A DNA stretch of 40,393 bases, taken from positions 1 to 40,393 of the forward strand of contig CAIMSU010000153.1 in assembly GCA_903844155.1 (NCBI GenBank). The letters are read 5' to 3'. Shown in pieces: positions 15,459 to 31,714 of the stretch; the stretch's first letter is position 1, and each line of letters starts with the position of its first letter. The notes under the pieces were generated by a model. The model was not told the DNA's origin. It was given only the letters and a program-made list of their open reading frames with translations, and did not search any database. The DNA comes from an uncultured Pseudomonadota bacterium (GTDB taxonomy: Bacteria; Myxococcota_A; UBA796; SXON01). A program made the position numbers and the translations under genes.

Positions 15459-17606
15459 TCAGAACGCGAACACCGTCCCGCCCGAGATCTGGGGGATGAT
15501 GCCCGTGTTCTTGGTCCCGGGCTGCGTCTGCTCCAGGTTCTTTCCGCTCATCACGCCGGCCGAGAGGTTCAGGTTCAACCCGAAGCTGTCCGCGACCATG
15601 AAGTCCGCACCGACCCGTGCGCGCGCGCCGAACGCCACGTCAAAGGCGGCGGAGTACGGCGTGATCGTCAGGTCCGCGCCCACGTAGGGGCGGATGCTCG
15701 TCTGCGTTGCCTTGTACTGGATCCCGAGGTTGAACGGCAGGATCGTGTTCCAGGGGTGCGCGTTGATGTCCGTCGGGCTGACGTTCTGCTCCGTCGCGAG
15801 CTGCTGCACGACCTTGTCGGTGAGCGCGCGCTGCGTGGAGAAGCCCTCCAGCCCCGCCTCGAACATGACGCTCGGGGAGATCGGGACCGTCAGCTCGCCG
15901 CCGTACGTCACGAAGTTGAAGTCGTAGTAGCGCGAGTAGCCGACGCGGCCGGTGATCCCGACGCCCGGCTTGTCGGCCTTCGCTGTGCTGTGATGGCTGG
16001 AGCTGGAGTGGCTGCCGGAGTCCCCGTCGTCCGTGTTCCGGGAGTGGGAGCTGCTGCTGCCGCTGCTGTGGTGCGAGGACCCGGAGTCGTCCAGGTTGTC
16101 GTCGCTGGAGTCCGACGACGCGGTGCGCGAGTGGGACGGCTTGTCCAGGTTGTCGTCGCTGGAATCCGAGCTGTCATCGCTGGAGTGATGCGAGGACGTC
16201 GACGCCGTGCGGCTGTGCGAGGAGGTGTCGGGCTCGTCCGAGCTGTCGTCCGTCGAGTGATGCGAGGACGACGACGTCCTTGAGCGCGAAGACGTGTCTG
16301 GCTCGTCGAGGCTGTCGTCCGTCGTGTGGTGCGAGGACGTTGACGCTGTGCGGCTGTGCGAGGAGGTGTCCGGCTCGTCGAGGCTGTCGTCGGAGGAGGA
16401 GGAGCGCGAGGTGGACGCCGTCTTCGAGTGCGACGACGGCGTGGGCGCGTCGAGGTCCAGCTCGTCGTCCGAGGAGGAGCTGTGCGAGGAGGACGAGCCT
16501 GACGAGCTGTGGGACGACGAGGAGTGCGACGGCGCGGGCGTGTCCGAGTCCGAGGAGTCATCGCTGGCGACGGTGGGCGACGCGCCCGGCTCGACCTGGA
16601 TCGCGCTGGCGGCGGAGCCGAAGGAGAAGGCAGCGTCGTCGTCGGACGCCTTCGGGGCGGTCGTGGTCTTGCTGGCGGAGGCGGTCTTTGCGGCCGCTGC
16701 AGCCTTCGCCGCGGCGTCGGCCTTCGCCTGTGCGTCAGCGCGGGCTCGCGCGTCCGCGTCTGCCTTGGCCTGCGCGGCTGCTGCGGCCTCCGCGCGGGCC
16801 TGCGCGTCCGCTCGTGCCTTCGCATCTGCGGCGTCCTTCGCCTGCTGTGCCGCGATCGCCGCCGCACGGGCCCGGGCGTCCGCGTCGGCCTTCGCCTTCG
16901 CATCCGAAGCCGCTTTGGCCTGGGCCGCAGCGTCCGACTTCGCCTTCGCGTCAGCAGCCGCCTTCGCAGCCGCGTCCGCGCGCTCTTCGTCCGGGTCCAC
17001 CTGGTCCTCGATCTGCCCCGGCTTGATGTCCGCCGACATCCTGGTCTTCGCCTGCGTTCCGGAGGGGTTGGCACCGCCGATCTGCATGTCGTCGTCGTCG
17101 GACGAGCTCGCCTTGAAGGTCGGCACGGCGTCGGCGGCCACCGCTGCGGCGGCGCTCTCGCCCGTCGTGATCTCCTTCACCCACGTCCCGGCCTTGTCCG
17201 CGAAGGCCGAGGGCTCGTTCGCGACGTCATAGGTCTTCTTGCGGATGATCGCGTTCTTTTTCACGTCGTAATAGACGATGTAGACCTGCACACCAGCCGT
17301 GCCGGGGCCGATCGAGCCCGTGATGACGGCGTCCGCGTTCCCGGTCTTGCCGATGCCCTGCAGGCACGAGGTGCTCGACAGGCAGGCGAGGTTGAGGGTC
17401 GCGGGCGCGTCCTCGAGCTGGTTCACGGTGTCGAACGCACCGGAGAAGTCGAGCTCCGATGCGACGAGCCCGGTGACGTTGCTGGTGACCTTCGCGTCCA
17501 CGCCCTTGGAGACGAACGGCGCCACAACGGCCGTGCCGCCGGCCCACGCCGCCGAGGGGAGGAGTAGACCAAGGACAAAGGGGAGCTTTTTGGACCAGTT
17601 CGCCAT
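15459..17606 (-). CDS. Outer-membrane protein: TolB-N-like, TolA-like and Ser/His repeat regions plus barrel
   Basis: A 715-aa exported protein. Signal peptide residues 1-22 (KKLPFVLGLLLPSAAWA). Residues ~23-150 resemble a TolB N-terminal domain (SELDFSGAFDTV, NADAVITGSIG, VYIVYYDVKKN). Residues ~205-310 are an Ala/Lys/Asp/Arg helix like TolA domain II. Residues ~340-545 are low-complexity Ser/Asp/His/Glu, with 23-24-residue repeats such as DDSLDEPDTSSHSRTAS. Residues ~550-715 have alternating strands of an outer-membrane barrel (GITGRVGYSRYYDFNFVTYG, TSIRPYVGADLTITPY) and end in Phe (TVFAF), the usual barrel-assembly signal. It may span the periplasm from the outer membrane. Start ATG 17606 follows an AGGTGATCC ribosome site. 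It is divergent from the sulfatase-like operon. Confidence 0.8.
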   Translation of the reverse strand: MANWSKKLPFVLGLLLPSAAWAGGTAVVAPFVSKGVDAKVTSNVTGLVASELDFSGAFDTVNQLEDAPATLNLACLSSTSCLQGIGKTGNADAVITGSIGPGTAGVQVYIVYYDVKKNAIIRKKTYDVANEPSAFADKAGTWVKEITTGESAAAAVAADAVPTFKASSSDDDDMQIGGANPSGTQAKTRMSADIKPGQIEDQVDPDEERADAAAKAAADAKAKSDAAAQAKAASDAKAKADADARARAAAIAAQQAKDAADAKARADAQARAEAAAAAQAKADADARARADAQAKADAAAKAAAAAKTASASKTTTAPKASDDDAAFSFGSAASAIQVEPGASPTVASDDSSDSDTPAPSHSSSSHSSSGSSSSHSSSSDDELDLDAPTPSSHSKTASTSRSSSSDDSLDEPDTSSHSRTASTSSHHTTDDSLDEPDTSSRSRTSSSSHHSTDDSSDEPDTSSHSRTASTSSHHSSDDSSDSSDDNLDKPSHSRTASSDSSDDNLDDSGSSHHSSGSSSSHSRNTDDGDSGSHSSSSHHSTAKADKPGVGITGRVGYSRYYDFNFVTYGGELTVPISPSVMFEAGLEGFSTQRALTDKVVQQLATEQNVSPTDINAHPWNTILPFNLGIQYKATQTSIRPYVGADLTITPYSAAFDVAFGARARVGADFMVADSFGLNLNLSAGVMSGKNLEQTQPGTKNTGIIPQISGGTVFAF
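16105..16400. repeat. ~70-bp in-gene tandem repeats (Ser/Asp/His coding)
   Basis: The minus-strand frame repeats a 23-24-residue unit, roughly DDSLDEPDTSSHSRTAS followed by TSSHH, about three times with drift, followed by shorter related units. The nucleotide sequence repeats too (for example the motif GAGGTGTCCGGCTCGTC recurs with few changes). Such repeats can expand or contract by slippage, so length polymorphism of the surface or periplasmic linker is plausible. Confidence 0.7.
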
Positions 17607-25652: not shown

Positions 25653-26237
25653 GTGTCCGCGCCGCCTGCCGTTGAGCCTGCCGAGCTGACGAAGCGGGAG
25701 GTGCTGGTCAACATCGTGCGCGCGCTCGCGATCCTGCTGGTCCTGGTGGTGCTGATCGGGGTCCTGTTTCGCGCGCCGATGGAGGCCGCGGCCGGGGTGT
25801 TCGTCGCCAAATTCGGGCTCTGGGGCGTCTTCTGCGCGGCGCTCATGCTCGACGCCCTGCCCGGCCTCGGGTCGCAGCCCATCGTGCTGCTCGCGTGCGC
25901 GGGTGGTCTGCCGGGCGGGTGGGTGTGGCTCGCGGCGGGGGTGGGGTCGTGGATGTCGGGGTCGCTCGGCTGGGGCGTTGGGCGGGCGCTTGGCCGTTGG
26001 CCGTGGTTTGCGGCGTGGATCAGGCGCACCGGGCTGGAGCGCGGGCTGCTGAAGCACCGTCGCCGGGCGATCTTCCTCGCGTCGCTCATCCCATTCCCGT
26101 ACGGGCTGGTGACGATGGCGGCGGGCGCAGCGGGTTTGCCGTTGGGCGAGGTAGCGCTTGGCGCGACGGGCCGGTTCATCAAGATCGGGCTGAACGTGGC
26201 GATCGTCGTGGCCGGCTGGAGTGCCACGCGGCGGTAG
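25653..26237 (+). CDS. VTT/DedA-like (TVP38/TMEM64, YqaA-type) membrane protein
   Basis: A 194-aa polytopic membrane protein: helix ~19-41 (IVRALAILLVLVVLIGVLF), helix ~52-70 (GLWGVFCAALMLDALPGLG), a Gly-rich re-entrant stretch (LLACAGGLPGGWVWLAAGVG, SWMSGSLGWGVGRALGR) and C-terminal helices (FLASLIPFPYGLVTMAAGAAGL, FIKIGLNVAIVVAGW). The conserved G-x-x-x-G pattern and the IPFPYGLVTMAAGAAG element fit the VTT fold, whose members move phospholipids across membranes or support envelope homeostasis. GTG 25653 is preceded by AGGGAGAG. It shares a promoter region with the divergent CreD-like gene. Confidence 0.72.
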   Translation: MSAPPAVEPAELTKREVLVNIVRALAILLVLVVLIGVLFRAPMEAAAGVFVAKFGLWGVFCAALMLDALPGLGSQPIVLLACAGGLPGGWVWLAAGVGSWMSGSLGWGVGRALGRWPWFAAWIRRTGLERGLLKHRRRAIFLASLIPFPYGLVTMAAGAAGLPLGEVALGATGRFIKIGLNVAIVVAGWSATRR

Positions 26238-28317: not shown

Positions 28318-29154
28318 CTAATTCTCCCACCGAAACGCCAGGAAGGTGTACGGCGGCCAGGTCGCATGGAAGCGGGAAGCCAGCCAGGCCTGGGAGCCGA
28401 GCACGAACGTCGGCATGGTCGGCCCGTCGTTTGGCTTCCAGAGCGCAAGGACGCCGAGGCGGATGTTCTTGTCGTCTGTGAGCGCGTTGGAGGTCCAATT
28501 CAGGGCGGGCCCAAACCAGAGCTTGCGCGACGTAGGCGTGGCCGGGTTGATCGCGTCGTAGAACGCGTAGACGGTTCGGCGGATGACCCAGCCGTGTGCG
28601 GGCGCGTCGATCTGGTCGGTGGGGTCCCAATAGAGTGTGAGATCCTTGCGATAGCCGTAGACGTCGTTACGGACGAACGTGGCCTCGGCAATTGCGAGGA
28701 TCGGGCCCGCTTTTGCCTTGAGGCGCACGTCCGCGAAGGCCTGGATGCCTCCGCCGCCCTCACGGTCACCGTCGGCGATGGCGCCCTGCTTCCAGGACCG
28801 CGTCGCGTCCGTGTCCCCGACGGGGATGGGAAGGATCGCCGAGAACGTCCCGAAGTACCAGATGCCCCAGGCACCGAGCGAAAAATCGCAGACCGCGAGC
28901 GGCGAGAGCCGGAACGTCGGGCCGACGCGCAGGAACGCCGGCGTGGCTTCCACATGCGCGACGACGGAGGTGAAGTTGTCGGCGGTGAGGGCGTGTGCGA
29001 TGCCCGTGCCGGGGGAGACCGGATAGAGTGAGAATCGCCATTCAGGCTCGAAGATCGCCTGCACCCCCTCGGGAAAAGCCGCGCCGGCGAGCTGCTCCAT
29101 GTGGTGGAAGTCCGCGGCTCGGGTGGGCTGGACGAGGAGGAGCGCTGCGAGCAA
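28318..29154 (-). CDS. Exported beta-rich (putative outer-membrane) protein
   Basis: A 278-aa product with a short signal peptide (LLLVQPTRAADF) and many alternating amphipathic strands: FLRVGPTFRLSPLAVCDFSL, IWYFGTFSAILPIPVG, AFADVRLKAKAGPILAIAEA, TVYAFYDAINPATPTSRKLW, FGPALNWTSNALTDDK, and the end YTFLAFRWEN. This is consistent with a small outer-membrane barrel, though a periplasmic beta-sandwich cannot be excluded. It is the third gene of the START-like/lipoprotein operon; the likely start is TTG 29154, 3 nt after the preceding stop (CTG 29157 is in frame just before). It converges on the malate synthase-like gene, 9 nt away. No family recognised. Confidence 0.7.
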   Translation of the reverse strand: MLAALLLVQPTRAADFHHMEQLAGAAFPEGVQAIFEPEWRFSLYPVSPGTGIAHALTADNFTSVVAHVEATPAFLRVGPTFRLSPLAVCDFSLGAWGIWYFGTFSAILPIPVGDTDATRSWKQGAIADGDREGGGGIQAFADVRLKAKAGPILAIAEATFVRNDVYGYRKDLTLYWDPTDQIDAPAHGWVIRRTVYAFYDAINPATPTSRKLWFGPALNWTSNALTDDKNIRLGVLALWKPNDGPTMPTFVLGSQAWLASRFHATWPPYTFLAFRWEN

Positions 29155-29157
29155 CAG

Positions 29158-29961
29158 TCAGAGTCCCTGGGCGATGATGGCAGCGTCTGTGTCGGAAAGC
29201 ACACCCGTCAGCCCGTCGAGGAGCTGCTGCTCCAGGAAATCCTGCGAGACGAGGCCGTCAATCACCAGCACCATCTCCGTCCATAGCGCCTGGGAGCGGT
29301 GCACAGTACCGTCCGAGGTGTCCATGAACACGTCCAGCGTGTAGGACTGCCGCACGCCGTTCTGGTGGGCGTCATCCCAGCCTTCAACCTCGATCCAGCC
29401 GCGGCTCACCACGGCCTTCTGGTCGTTTCCGTCCGCGTCCGTGTACGTCGCCCACTGATAGTCCTTGAAGTACACGTAGGGGATGGTCACGCCAAAGGCA
29501 GCGGTCTTGATGATGTCGTTGGTGGTCGTCAGCCGCTCGCAGGTCTCGTCCGCAAAACAATCCCCGCCGGTGACAAAAGCACGCTCGTTCTTGGAGTAGT
29601 CGTTGGGGTTCACCACCGACTGATCGGGCAGCATGATGAACGCGACCTGCTGGTCGAGCGTCGCGGTGCTCTGCGCGTCCACGAAGCCGCCGAGCGTGTC
29701 GGCAGGGTCGGTGCCGGGTGGGATCACGATCTGCGCGACGGCGTCGCTCGACAGCGCTGGCAGGATGTAGCCCGGCTCGGCAGCGCCGCGAGTGTCCATC
29801 CAGGTTGCCAGCGAGGTCAGGCCCCCGGAGAGCAACGTGGGGTCGGCCTGATTGCCGAAAAGATACGGGGCAAGGTCTACCAGATCCGTCGGCGCCGACG
29901 CCTGCTTCTTGCAGCCCGTGGCGACGGAGATGCCGGCGAGGATCCAGACGACCTTCTTCAT
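29158..29961 (-). CDS. Lipoprotein of unknown function
   Basis: A 267-aa lipoprotein: KKVVWILAGISVATGC is a signal peptide with a lipobox ending at Cys17. The mature part has no family I recognise. It contains two Cys near the middle (GGDCFADETCERL), which could form a disulfide, and strand-like regions (AAFGVTIPYVYFKDYQWATY, RQSYTLDVFMDTSDGTVHRS). ATG 29961 overlaps the stop of the preceding START-like gene by 4 nt, so the two are translationally coupled. Together with the following barrel-like gene it makes a periplasm-to-outer-membrane set, which suggests it bridges or anchors the START-like protein. Confidence 0.75.
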   Translation of the reverse strand: MKKVVWILAGISVATGCKKQASAPTDLVDLAPYLFGNQADPTLLSGGLTSLATWMDTRGAAEPGYILPALSSDAVAQIVIPPGTDPADTLGGFVDAQSTATLDQQVAFIMLPDQSVVNPNDYSKNERAFVTGGDCFADETCERLTTTNDIIKTAAFGVTIPYVYFKDYQWATYTDADGNDQKAVVSRGWIEVEGWDDAHQNGVRQSYTLDVFMDTSDGTVHRSQALWTEMVLVIDGLVSQDFLEQQLLDGLTGVLSDTDAAIIAQGL

Positions 29962-30533
29962 GCGCCCTCCGCGCGGTGGACCAGGTCAACGAGGTAATCC
30001 TTCACGCCCTGCCCGCACAGCCAGGACTTGATGAAACCGGGGATAGCGGCTCCGAAATCCGTGTCGACAACGTAGCTCAAGCGTTGCCACTGAGGGTTGT
30101 TGGGGCTGGTGCCCAGCGTGTAGACCCCCCGGCTCCAGGTCAGGTCATTCGGCTGCGACGCGTCGAGCTCATGGATCAAGCTGCCATCAGCGCGATCGAG
30201 GAGGTAGTGGTTGTGGTAGGTCACGGAGAACCCGAAGTGTGAGACTTCCCACACCCCCCACTCCTCTGTCGGCGTGCTTGTCCGGTAGTACGCGAACGAC
30301 TTCACCGAGCTGTTGCCCTTGAGCCGCGCCTGAAAATCCAGGAGCGCGGCCCAGACCGCATCGGCCGACGCTGCAACGTCCGCGATTCCTTCCACGCTCA
30401 CGCCGCCGGCGTGGCTTGGGGTGTGGTCGAGCAGCAGCACCTCGCCAGCGGCCAGCGACGCCTCCTGCGCGGGCGCGAGCGGCGCGAGGCCGGCATCGGC
30501 CGTCGGGAGGATGGCGAGGAGCGAGAGGATCAC
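29958..30533 (-). CDS. Exported START/SRPBCC-like ligand-binding protein
   Basis: A 191-aa protein with a signal peptide (ILSLLAILPTADAG) followed by a SRPBCC/START-type fold by pattern: VSVEGIADVAASADAVWAAL is the opening strand-helix of the family (where polyketide-cyclase-like proteins read V-x-A-x-x-x-V-W-x-x-L), then LKGNSSVKSFAYYR, WEVSHFGFSVTYHNHYLL, LTWSRGVYTLG, RLSYVVDTDFGAAIPGFIKSWL and a C-terminal helix ending KDYLVDLVHR. These folds bind lipids or other hydrophobic molecules in a deep cavity. An exported version upstream of a lipoprotein and a beta-rich exported protein points to a periplasmic hydrophobic-ligand carrier. GTG 30533 is the start; the gene is the promoter-proximal member of the operon. 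Confidence 0.72.
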   Translation of the reverse strand: MILSLLAILPTADAGLAPLAPAQEASLAAGEVLLLDHTPSHAGGVSVEGIADVAASADAVWAALLDFQARLKGNSSVKSFAYYRTSTPTEEWGVWEVSHFGFSVTYHNHYLLDRADGSLIHELDASQPNDLTWSRGVYTLGTSPNNPQWQRLSYVVDTDFGAAIPGFIKSWLCGQGVKDYLVDLVHRAEGA

Positions 30534-30568: not shown

Positions 30569-31714
30569 TCAGCGCGCCTTGCGACGCACGCCAACGCGGG
30601 CTTCCGGCGCATCTGCGGTGGGCGCGGCGGCTTCCACCACAGGCGGAGCCACAGCGGGCGCAGGCTTCGCAACAGCGACGACCGCCTTCGGCCCCGGGGC
30701 GGGCGGCCGCGACGGGATCGCGTGGGCGGGCGCTCGGGGTGCGACCGCAGCGCGCGCGGCAACTTTCGGCGTCTTCGGCCCGATTGTCACGCCGGATAGC
30801 AGCCCCGCCATGGTGCCGAACGTGTTCTGCCCGGAGCTGTTGTTCCCGCGCTTTTCGGCCGGGACGTCTGCGGGGGTGTCGGCCGCCTGACGAATTCCCA
30901 GGTTCACCCGTTGCCGGGGCGCGTCGACGGACAGCACCCGCACATTCACGATCTGGCCCTCCTCCAGCGCGTCGCTGGCCTTGTTGAGGCGCGCCTTGCC
31001 GATGTTGGAGATGTGGACCAGCCCCTCGACCCCGTTCGGGAGCCGGACGAACGCGCCGAATTCGCGCAGCGCGATGACGGTTCCCTCGTACACCTCGCCC
31101 TCCTTCAACTCGGTGAGTCGCTCGCCGCGCGTGGCCTTCGCTTCCTCCTCCGCGATCGCCTTGTGGCTCACGATCGCGTCGCGCCCGCGCACGTCGAGGA
31201 TGCGGAACATCATCGTCTGCCCGACGTAGGCGGTGGGATCGGTGTCGATGACGCGGTCGATCTGGCCCATCGGGCAGAAGGCACGCACGCCGCCCGAAAG
31301 CTCGACCTCAAACCCGTGCTCGTTGTGCGACGTCACGCGGCCCTGCACCGGGATGCCCTGCTCCTTGGCCTCGTCGAGCAGCTCGCGCGTGGCCTCGCCC
31401 GAGACCGTGAGCGTCAGCTTGATCTCGCCGTCGCTCGTCGACAGAACGAACACGTCCAGCGCGTCGCCGGCTTGCAACCCGGCGGGGACGTCGATGCGCT
31501 CGAGCGTGGCGTCGGCCTTGGCGCCGATGTCCACGAACACGGTCGAGTCGGAGACACGCGAGACGGTCGCCCGTACGCGCTGACCCTTCCGGAACCCGCC
31601 CTTGTGCTTTGGGGCGAAGTCGCTCATCAATTGGGCAAGCTCGGCGGCCGAGAGATCGGCGACGGCGGTGAGATCGAGGTCGACGGGCGGGGCGGCGCGA
31701 GAGGGGGCGGGCAT
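30569..31714 (-). CDS. S1-domain RNA-binding protein
   Basis: A 381-aa protein with three S1-type oligonucleotide-binding domains: ~43-110 (KGQRVRATVSRVSDSTVFVDIG), ~120-190 (GIPVQGRVTSHNEHGFEVELSGG, ending VSHKA) and ~203-275 (EGEVYEGTVIALREFGAFVRLPNGVEGLVHISNIG, a textbook S1 domain). The last ~100 residues are a basic, Ala/Pro-rich tail. Ribosomal protein S1 in Gram-negatives usually has four to six S1 domains and ~550 aa, so this is a shorter S1-like protein or an accessory RNA-binding protein. ATG 31714 follows AGGAG. It is divergent from queA. Confidence 0.85.
   Translation of the reverse strand: MPAPSRAAPPVDLDLTAVADLSAAELAQLMSDFAPKHKGGFRKGQRVRATVSRVSDSTVFVDIGAKADATLERIDVPAGLQAGDALDVFVLSTSDGEIKLTLTVSGEATRELLDEAKEQGIPVQGRVTSHNEHGFEVELSGGVRAFCPMGQIDRVIDTDPTAYVGQTMMFRILDVRGRDAIVSHKAIAEEEAKATRGERLTELKEGEVYEGTVIALREFGAFVRLPNGVEGLVHISNIGKARLNKASDALEEGQIVNVRVLSVDAPRQRVNLGIRQAADTPADVPAEKRGNNSSGQNTFGTMAGLLSGVTIGPKTPKVAARAAVAPRAPAHAIPSRPPAPGPKAVVAVAKPAPAVAPPVVEAAAPTADAPEARVGVRRKAR

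Follow-up and report, generated by a model that had tools for sequence, protein, structure and literature searches.

The passage of phospholipids and other hydrophobic compounds through the periplasm is only partly understood, and the freshwater, myxobacterium-like lineage studied here lacks the Mla components that model bacteria use. We analyzed a stretch of 40,393 nucleotides (hereafter the window), which is one contig of an 8.1-Mb draft genome. Three genes on its minus strand at 28318–30533, referred to here as G1, G2 and G3, encode products that all look exported from their sequences.

Gene structure and predicted folds of the three-gene set

G1 (29958–30533, GTG start, 191 amino acids), G2 (29158–29961, ATG start, 267 amino acids) and G3 (28318–29154, TTG start, 278 amino acids) are closely spaced on the minus strand. 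G1 and G2 overlap by four nucleotides (ATGA, 29958–29961, minus strand), and the overlap is identical in three of four congeners. G2 and G3 are separated by a gap of 3 nt (29155–29157, minus strand); a CTG codon directly precedes the TTG of G3, so that the gene may alternatively start at 29157. The N-terminus of G1 carries a hydrophobic stretch ending in ADA, that of G2 a lipobox ending in GC, and that of G3 a short hydrophobic stretch ending in TRA. Coordinates and N-termini thus confirmed the initial annotation, which had described three minus-strand genes with one 4-nt overlap, one 3-nt junction and export signals. Further, every genome of the genus possessed full-length, stop-free orthologues of all three genes in the same order. 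Chance open reading frames would not give that pattern, and we therefore consider G1, G2 and G3 to be real genes. A promoter and terminator scan detected nothing above chance. Many signal sequences of this lineage are very short and have no Lys or Arg ahead of the hydrophobic core, as in 26 of 30 G3 homologues.

An N-terminal hydrophobic stretch was present in 27 of 30 G1 homologues, which argues for an exported START-like family. PF10604 was matched by 21 of the 30 (best 1.4e-10), and the match of the window copy was weak and under the curated cut-off (1.6e-3). When the family profile was compared with the PDB, the START-superfamily entry 5z8o was matched at 3.7e-5, followed by weaker matches to 3tfz, 1ln1 (phosphatidylcholine transfer protein) and 3qsz; the matches are cyclase/START entries. 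Judged by these profiles, G1 is a member of the SRPBCC/START superfamily, and the earlier description of a protein of this type with a signal peptide was borne out. G1-type genes number about three per genome, and a scan of the collection with a narrower G1 alignment returned only the genera already found.

The lipidation Cys of G2 (Cys17, codon 29911–29913, minus strand), as placed by sequence and alignment, is residue +1 of the mature protein and occupies this position in 93% of the aligned homologues. The +2 residue is Lys in the window and varies within the genus (K, K, I, G and S across five genomes). In Myxococcus xanthus, lipoproteins of the inner membrane are marked by Lys at this position (PMC3222651), and anchoring of G2 in the outer membrane is therefore not established. 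G2 also contains a Cys pair in the motif GGDCFADETC (29539–29559, minus strand; codons 29557–29559 and 29539–29541), which was kept in all five congeners and was missing from part of the wider family. The AlphaFold model of G2 (pLDDT 94.9) comprises two N-terminal helices followed by a beta-alpha-beta6-long alpha topology. Foldseek returned 65 PDB matches at E ≤ 1e-3, and among the 50 listed nearly all were START proteins, Bet v 1/PR-10 proteins, ABA receptors or other SRPBCC structures. Among the matches listed, the TM-score reached 0.70 by target (2d4r) and was 0.32–0.44 by query, the latter being low because the matched domain fills part of a query with an extra N-terminal section. Searches of the G2 family against Pfam, NCBIfam and PDB sequences gave no relevant match and none to known START families, and an hhalign comparison of G1 with G2 was negative, indicating no sequence homology. 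From its model, G2 is thus predicted to be a second START-like protein, in which helices at the N-terminus precede a START/helix-grip fold, the fold class being that of G1. G2 had initially been described as a lipoprotein with a Cys pair; lipobox and Cys pair were both confirmed, but the description was incomplete in that the predicted fold is also START-like.

The G2 family had a match in 69 of 74 relatives, with 1–12 copies per genome, nearly all with the lipobox Cys. Members such as L011 and L122–L127 (mostly from genome G031) illustrate the copy number of up to 12 per genome; the fold was predicted for one member. A START or barrel neighbor was absent from most of the approximately 95 G2-family loci examined, which indicates that G2-type proteins have other roles too.

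The AlphaFold model of G3 (pLDDT 91.9, pTM 0.86) shows 12 long strands, with long loops between strands 5–6 and 7–8; like that of G2, it was built from an alignment of 27–29 sequences. Foldseek matched it to autotransporter barrels, FapF, LpxR, NanC and porins, with a best TM-score of 0.55 (Hbp). We therefore confidently predict that G3 is a 12-strand outer-membrane beta-barrel, in agreement with the earlier view of a strand-rich protein that may be a barrel. No family in Pfam or NCBIfam was matched by 27 G3 homologues. Gly, Pro and Leu make up most of their near-invariant residues, joined by R63 and a PPY motif conserved at the last strand, and R63 and Y256 are the only polar or aromatic residues conserved in at least 90% of them. 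Since no Ser, His or acidic residue is near-invariant in the 27 homologues, G3 more probably serves as a channel or dock than as an enzyme. An outer-membrane lipid enzyme of the OMPLA or LpxR type was rejected, as no catalytic residues were conserved across this set; the ten closest homologues do share conserved polar residues, and an enzyme limited to them is possible. Membership in the FadL family was also rejected, given 12 strands versus 14 and no Toluene_X or other Pfam match in the 27 members. Two distant G3-type barrels in other genera (L113:5470–6924 and L109:6525–8005) adjoin an Asp/Gly-rich lipoprotein and lie near an ABC transporter ATPase gene.

Linkage across genomes and neighboring genes

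All five genomes of the genus show the order G1-G2-G3, the genes overlapping or being separated by small gaps. In the sister genus (three of three genomes), G2 was absent and the order was c16-G1-G3-VTT-TetR, with 4-nt overlaps between G1 and G3 and between VTT and TetR in all three genomes and between G3 and VTT in two. The c16 gene encodes another exported START protein, which matches 3qsz at 1.2e-7. Each arrangement thus combines a barrel with a pair of START-like proteins, arrived at in different ways. A third genus (G007) has G1 and G3 on separate contigs. The expectation that the genes co-occur, raised by the initial annotation, therefore met a mixed result: the set was complete in five of five genomes within the genus, but it is not obligate, given the sister genus without G2 and the third genus with its unlinked G1 and G3. 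The genomes compared are drafts, so that absence from a genome or separation on contigs is weak evidence; gene counts per genome were estimated, and the genes of relatives were called with a simple codon-bias caller.

Nine of the 74 genomes had close orthologues of both G1 and G3, and a tenth had one of G3 only. Outside the genus, five genera contributed six loci with adjacent same-strand G1-G2 pairs, most of which overlap by 4 nt; G1 came first in G023, G048 and G029, and G2 came first in G065, G068 and G059. From about three G1-type genes per genome and about 145 listed matches, approximately 0.1–0.2 such adjacencies were expected by chance, a probability that is only indicative, because four of the six pairs were picked from coordinate lists rather than blindly sampled and relatives are not independent. 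Related loci in the databases come from freshwater metagenome-assembled genomes (MAGs). One record, CALQBK020000085.1 (L115), carries the locus at 70% identity and is titled Bifidobacterium breve, which is surely a wrong title for this MAG.

A gene at 25653–26237 (plus strand) encodes a putative VTT-domain (DedA/TMEM41B-like) inner-membrane protein; the VTT_dom profile matched three of seven orthologues (best 6.7e-8) and gave no match with the window copy alone. This neighbor adjoins the set in seven of seven loci where the contig reaches, and in the sister genus it lies inside the operon of G1 and G3. Its family, present in 51 of 74 genomes, is more widespread than the operon, and five distant loci of the family had no START or barrel neighbor. 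VTT/DedA proteins are putative flippases of undecaprenyl-phosphate or phospholipid (PMC10127716), and lipid scrambling is described for TMEM41B and VMP1 (PMC8072408). A functional link of the VTT protein to the set is suggestive only. On the other side, an S1-domain gene (30569–31714, minus strand; PF00575, 1.7e-30) is co-oriented and located 35 nt upstream of G1; it precedes G1 in all five congeners, an arrangement that the sister genus does not share. Downstream, the set faces a convergent malate synthase gene. The TetR gene, which is inside the operon in the sister genus, adjoins G3 in one congener. Elsewhere in the window, 15459–17606 encodes an exported protein with a weak match to the TolB N-terminal domain (1.6e-4) and no propeller match.

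Lipid transport in the lineage and comparison with known systems

MlaA and MlaC were found in none of 23 relatives by family profile searches in which the controls were positive, and MCE/MlaD (1–5 copies) and LolA were present in all 23. Thus, the lineage lacks the standard phospholipid shuttle of the periplasm and already has a system for lipoprotein transport; a role of the operon as a replacement of Lol was rejected accordingly. The loss of Mla is order-wide and includes genomes without the G1-G2-G3 operon. Across the order (23 genomes), MCE transporters occur without their usual shuttle or outer-membrane partner. A link of the set to these transporters was rejected, as none of 11 MCE-gene regions taken from three carrier genomes contained a homologue of G1, G2 or G3, and no MCE gene was located near the operon at the loci examined. 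In two congeners, an exported SRPBCC protein (PF10604, up to 1.5e-8) is encoded about 3 kb from an MCE operon (L195:9130–9645 and L204:9220–9723). The squalene/oxidosqualene cyclase domain SQHop_cyclase_N was not detected in any of the nine carrier genomes, which makes a self-made sterol or hopanoid cargo unlikely, and we rejected it.

LolA and LolB share one fold. Like G1 and G2, they comprise a soluble periplasmic carrier and a lipid-anchored acceptor of a single fold (relay in PMC11885536). The two pairs are not homologous; the present set has a predicted START/helix-grip rather than a Lol fold and an added barrel, and LolA is separate in 23 of 23 relatives, a genuine copy being encoded elsewhere in the genome; homologue profile searches gave no Lol family match for G1 or G2. 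The Mla pathway (MlaA-MlaC-MlaFEDB) resembles the set in combining an outer-membrane part with a periplasmic hydrophobic carrier, but the folds differ, in addition to the distribution described above. The STAR-related protein of Xanthomonas axonopodis (3qsz), whose fragment starts at residue 25, is START-folded and exported like G1. To our knowledge, it is a single protein with no lipid-anchored partner or barrel. The BstA/BstB/BstC proteins of Methylococcus form a multi-protein periplasmic set for sterol transport (PMC10942540); the present set would likewise be a multi-protein periplasmic system, but the folds are unrelated and the genomes that carry the operon lack squalene/oxidosqualene cyclase. 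In eukaryotes, a partnership between a lipid-transfer protein and the TMEM41B/VMP1 scramblases has been proposed (PMC8072408). Here the gene of a putative carrier lies beside a putative VTT gene in bacteria, and ATG2 of the eukaryotic partnership is a bridge, not a START shuttle.

A possible START-based relay at the envelope

Gene structure, export and lipidation signals, predicted folds and recurrent linkage were all observed at this locus. The explanation that we tentatively favor, although it falls somewhat short of probable, is a relay of START-type proteins, encoded by the operon, that would carry a hydrophobic ligand, most probably a lipid, at the envelope of the cell. It is supported by the presence in a single operon of a soluble and a lipid-anchored protein with START-like folds; by the 12-strand barrel encoded with them, which is predicted with confidence and has no residues that point to an enzyme; by linkage in the genus, in the sister genus and in the recurring G1-G2 pairs; by the nine genomes shared by close G1 and G3 orthologues; and by the absence of MlaA and MlaC alongside the presence of MCE/MlaD and LolA. 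Against it speak the incomplete set in the other two genera, the many G2-family loci that have no START or barrel neighbor, an Mla loss that extends to genomes lacking the operon, the variable +2 residue of G2 and the helix-grip domains of proteins that act on other proteins. In such a relay, G1, soluble in the periplasm, would hold the ligand in its START-like cavity, and G2 would take the ligand from G1, or pass it to G1, at a membrane surface. The G3 barrel in the outer membrane would be the entry, exit or docking point, and at the inner membrane the VTT-domain protein may serve to equilibrate the lipid or to present it. Ligand binding, the hand-off and its direction, the membrane in which G2 resides and the involvement of the VTT protein are what we infer in this model. 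A periplasmic carrier set that delivers cargo to or from the outer membrane had already been suggested for this locus; that is still the best reading, but the picture is now one of two carriers of one fold. As that suggestion also held, we found no described system of this make-up in the literature and family libraries searched.

Alternatively, the helix-grip cavity of G1, G2 or both might escort or fold a protein, for example G3, or the set might be an accessory of BAM. There are precedents for helix-grip domains outside lipid binding, in that the periplasmic, membrane-anchored SRPBCC protein CpaB is a chaperone whose gene adjoins that of its substrate CpaA (PMC4713064) and BamC, an outer-membrane lipoprotein with two helix-grip domains, is part of the BAM complex (PMC3359395); a barrel gene also adjoins the carrier genes here. 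Both precedents act on proteins, whereas the 50 listed Foldseek matches of G2 are nearly all START/Bet v 1-type ligand binders and do not include BamC. Further, the G2 family matched no BamC model in Pfam or NCBIfam and no sequence relation to BamC was found, so that an identity of G2 with BamC was rejected; BamC is reported to be absent from delta-proteobacteria (PMC3359395), and G1-G2 pairs exist without an adjoining G3 homologue. We therefore regard a chaperone set as unlikely.

Uptake of an environmental hydrophobic compound, such as a fatty acid, an aromatic, a pigment or a prey-derived lipid, is likewise improbable. G3 would then be a selective porin, G2 and G1 the binders and TetR a ligand-sensing regulator, which would suit the position of TetR in the sister-genus operon and beside G3 in one congener, the long loops of G3 and the occurrence of the lineage in freshwater metagenomes. 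The conserved neighborhood, however, contains no dedicated catabolic gene, the S1 protein, QueA and malate synthase being unspecific; G3 is outside the FadL/toluene_X family, and the VTT neighbor suits endogenous lipids better. Finally, co-expression of mechanistically separate exported proteins, with linkage in the genus due to shared ancestry, fits the lack of G2 in the sister genus, the separation of G1 and G3 in the third genus and the solitary position of most G2 and G3 homologues, but it is quite improbable given 4-nt overlaps that persist across genera, G1-G2 pairs that recur in both orders in five other genera and the nine genomes shared by close orthologues of G1 and G3.

The START-based relay, by comparison, is a small and testable candidate, a compact operon of a soluble and a lipid-anchored START carrier plus a barrel. 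It also gives a predicted fold to the G2 family, which is unnamed in Pfam and NCBIfam. Whether soluble START protein, anchored START protein, outer-membrane barrel and inner-membrane VTT protein together form a lipid shuttle across the Gram-negative envelope, in a lineage without MlaA and MlaC, is a more doubtful proposal, conceivable but on balance rather unlikely. If it is true, START-type lipid transfer, which is known mostly inside eukaryotic cells, would extend to a trans-envelope route in bacteria.
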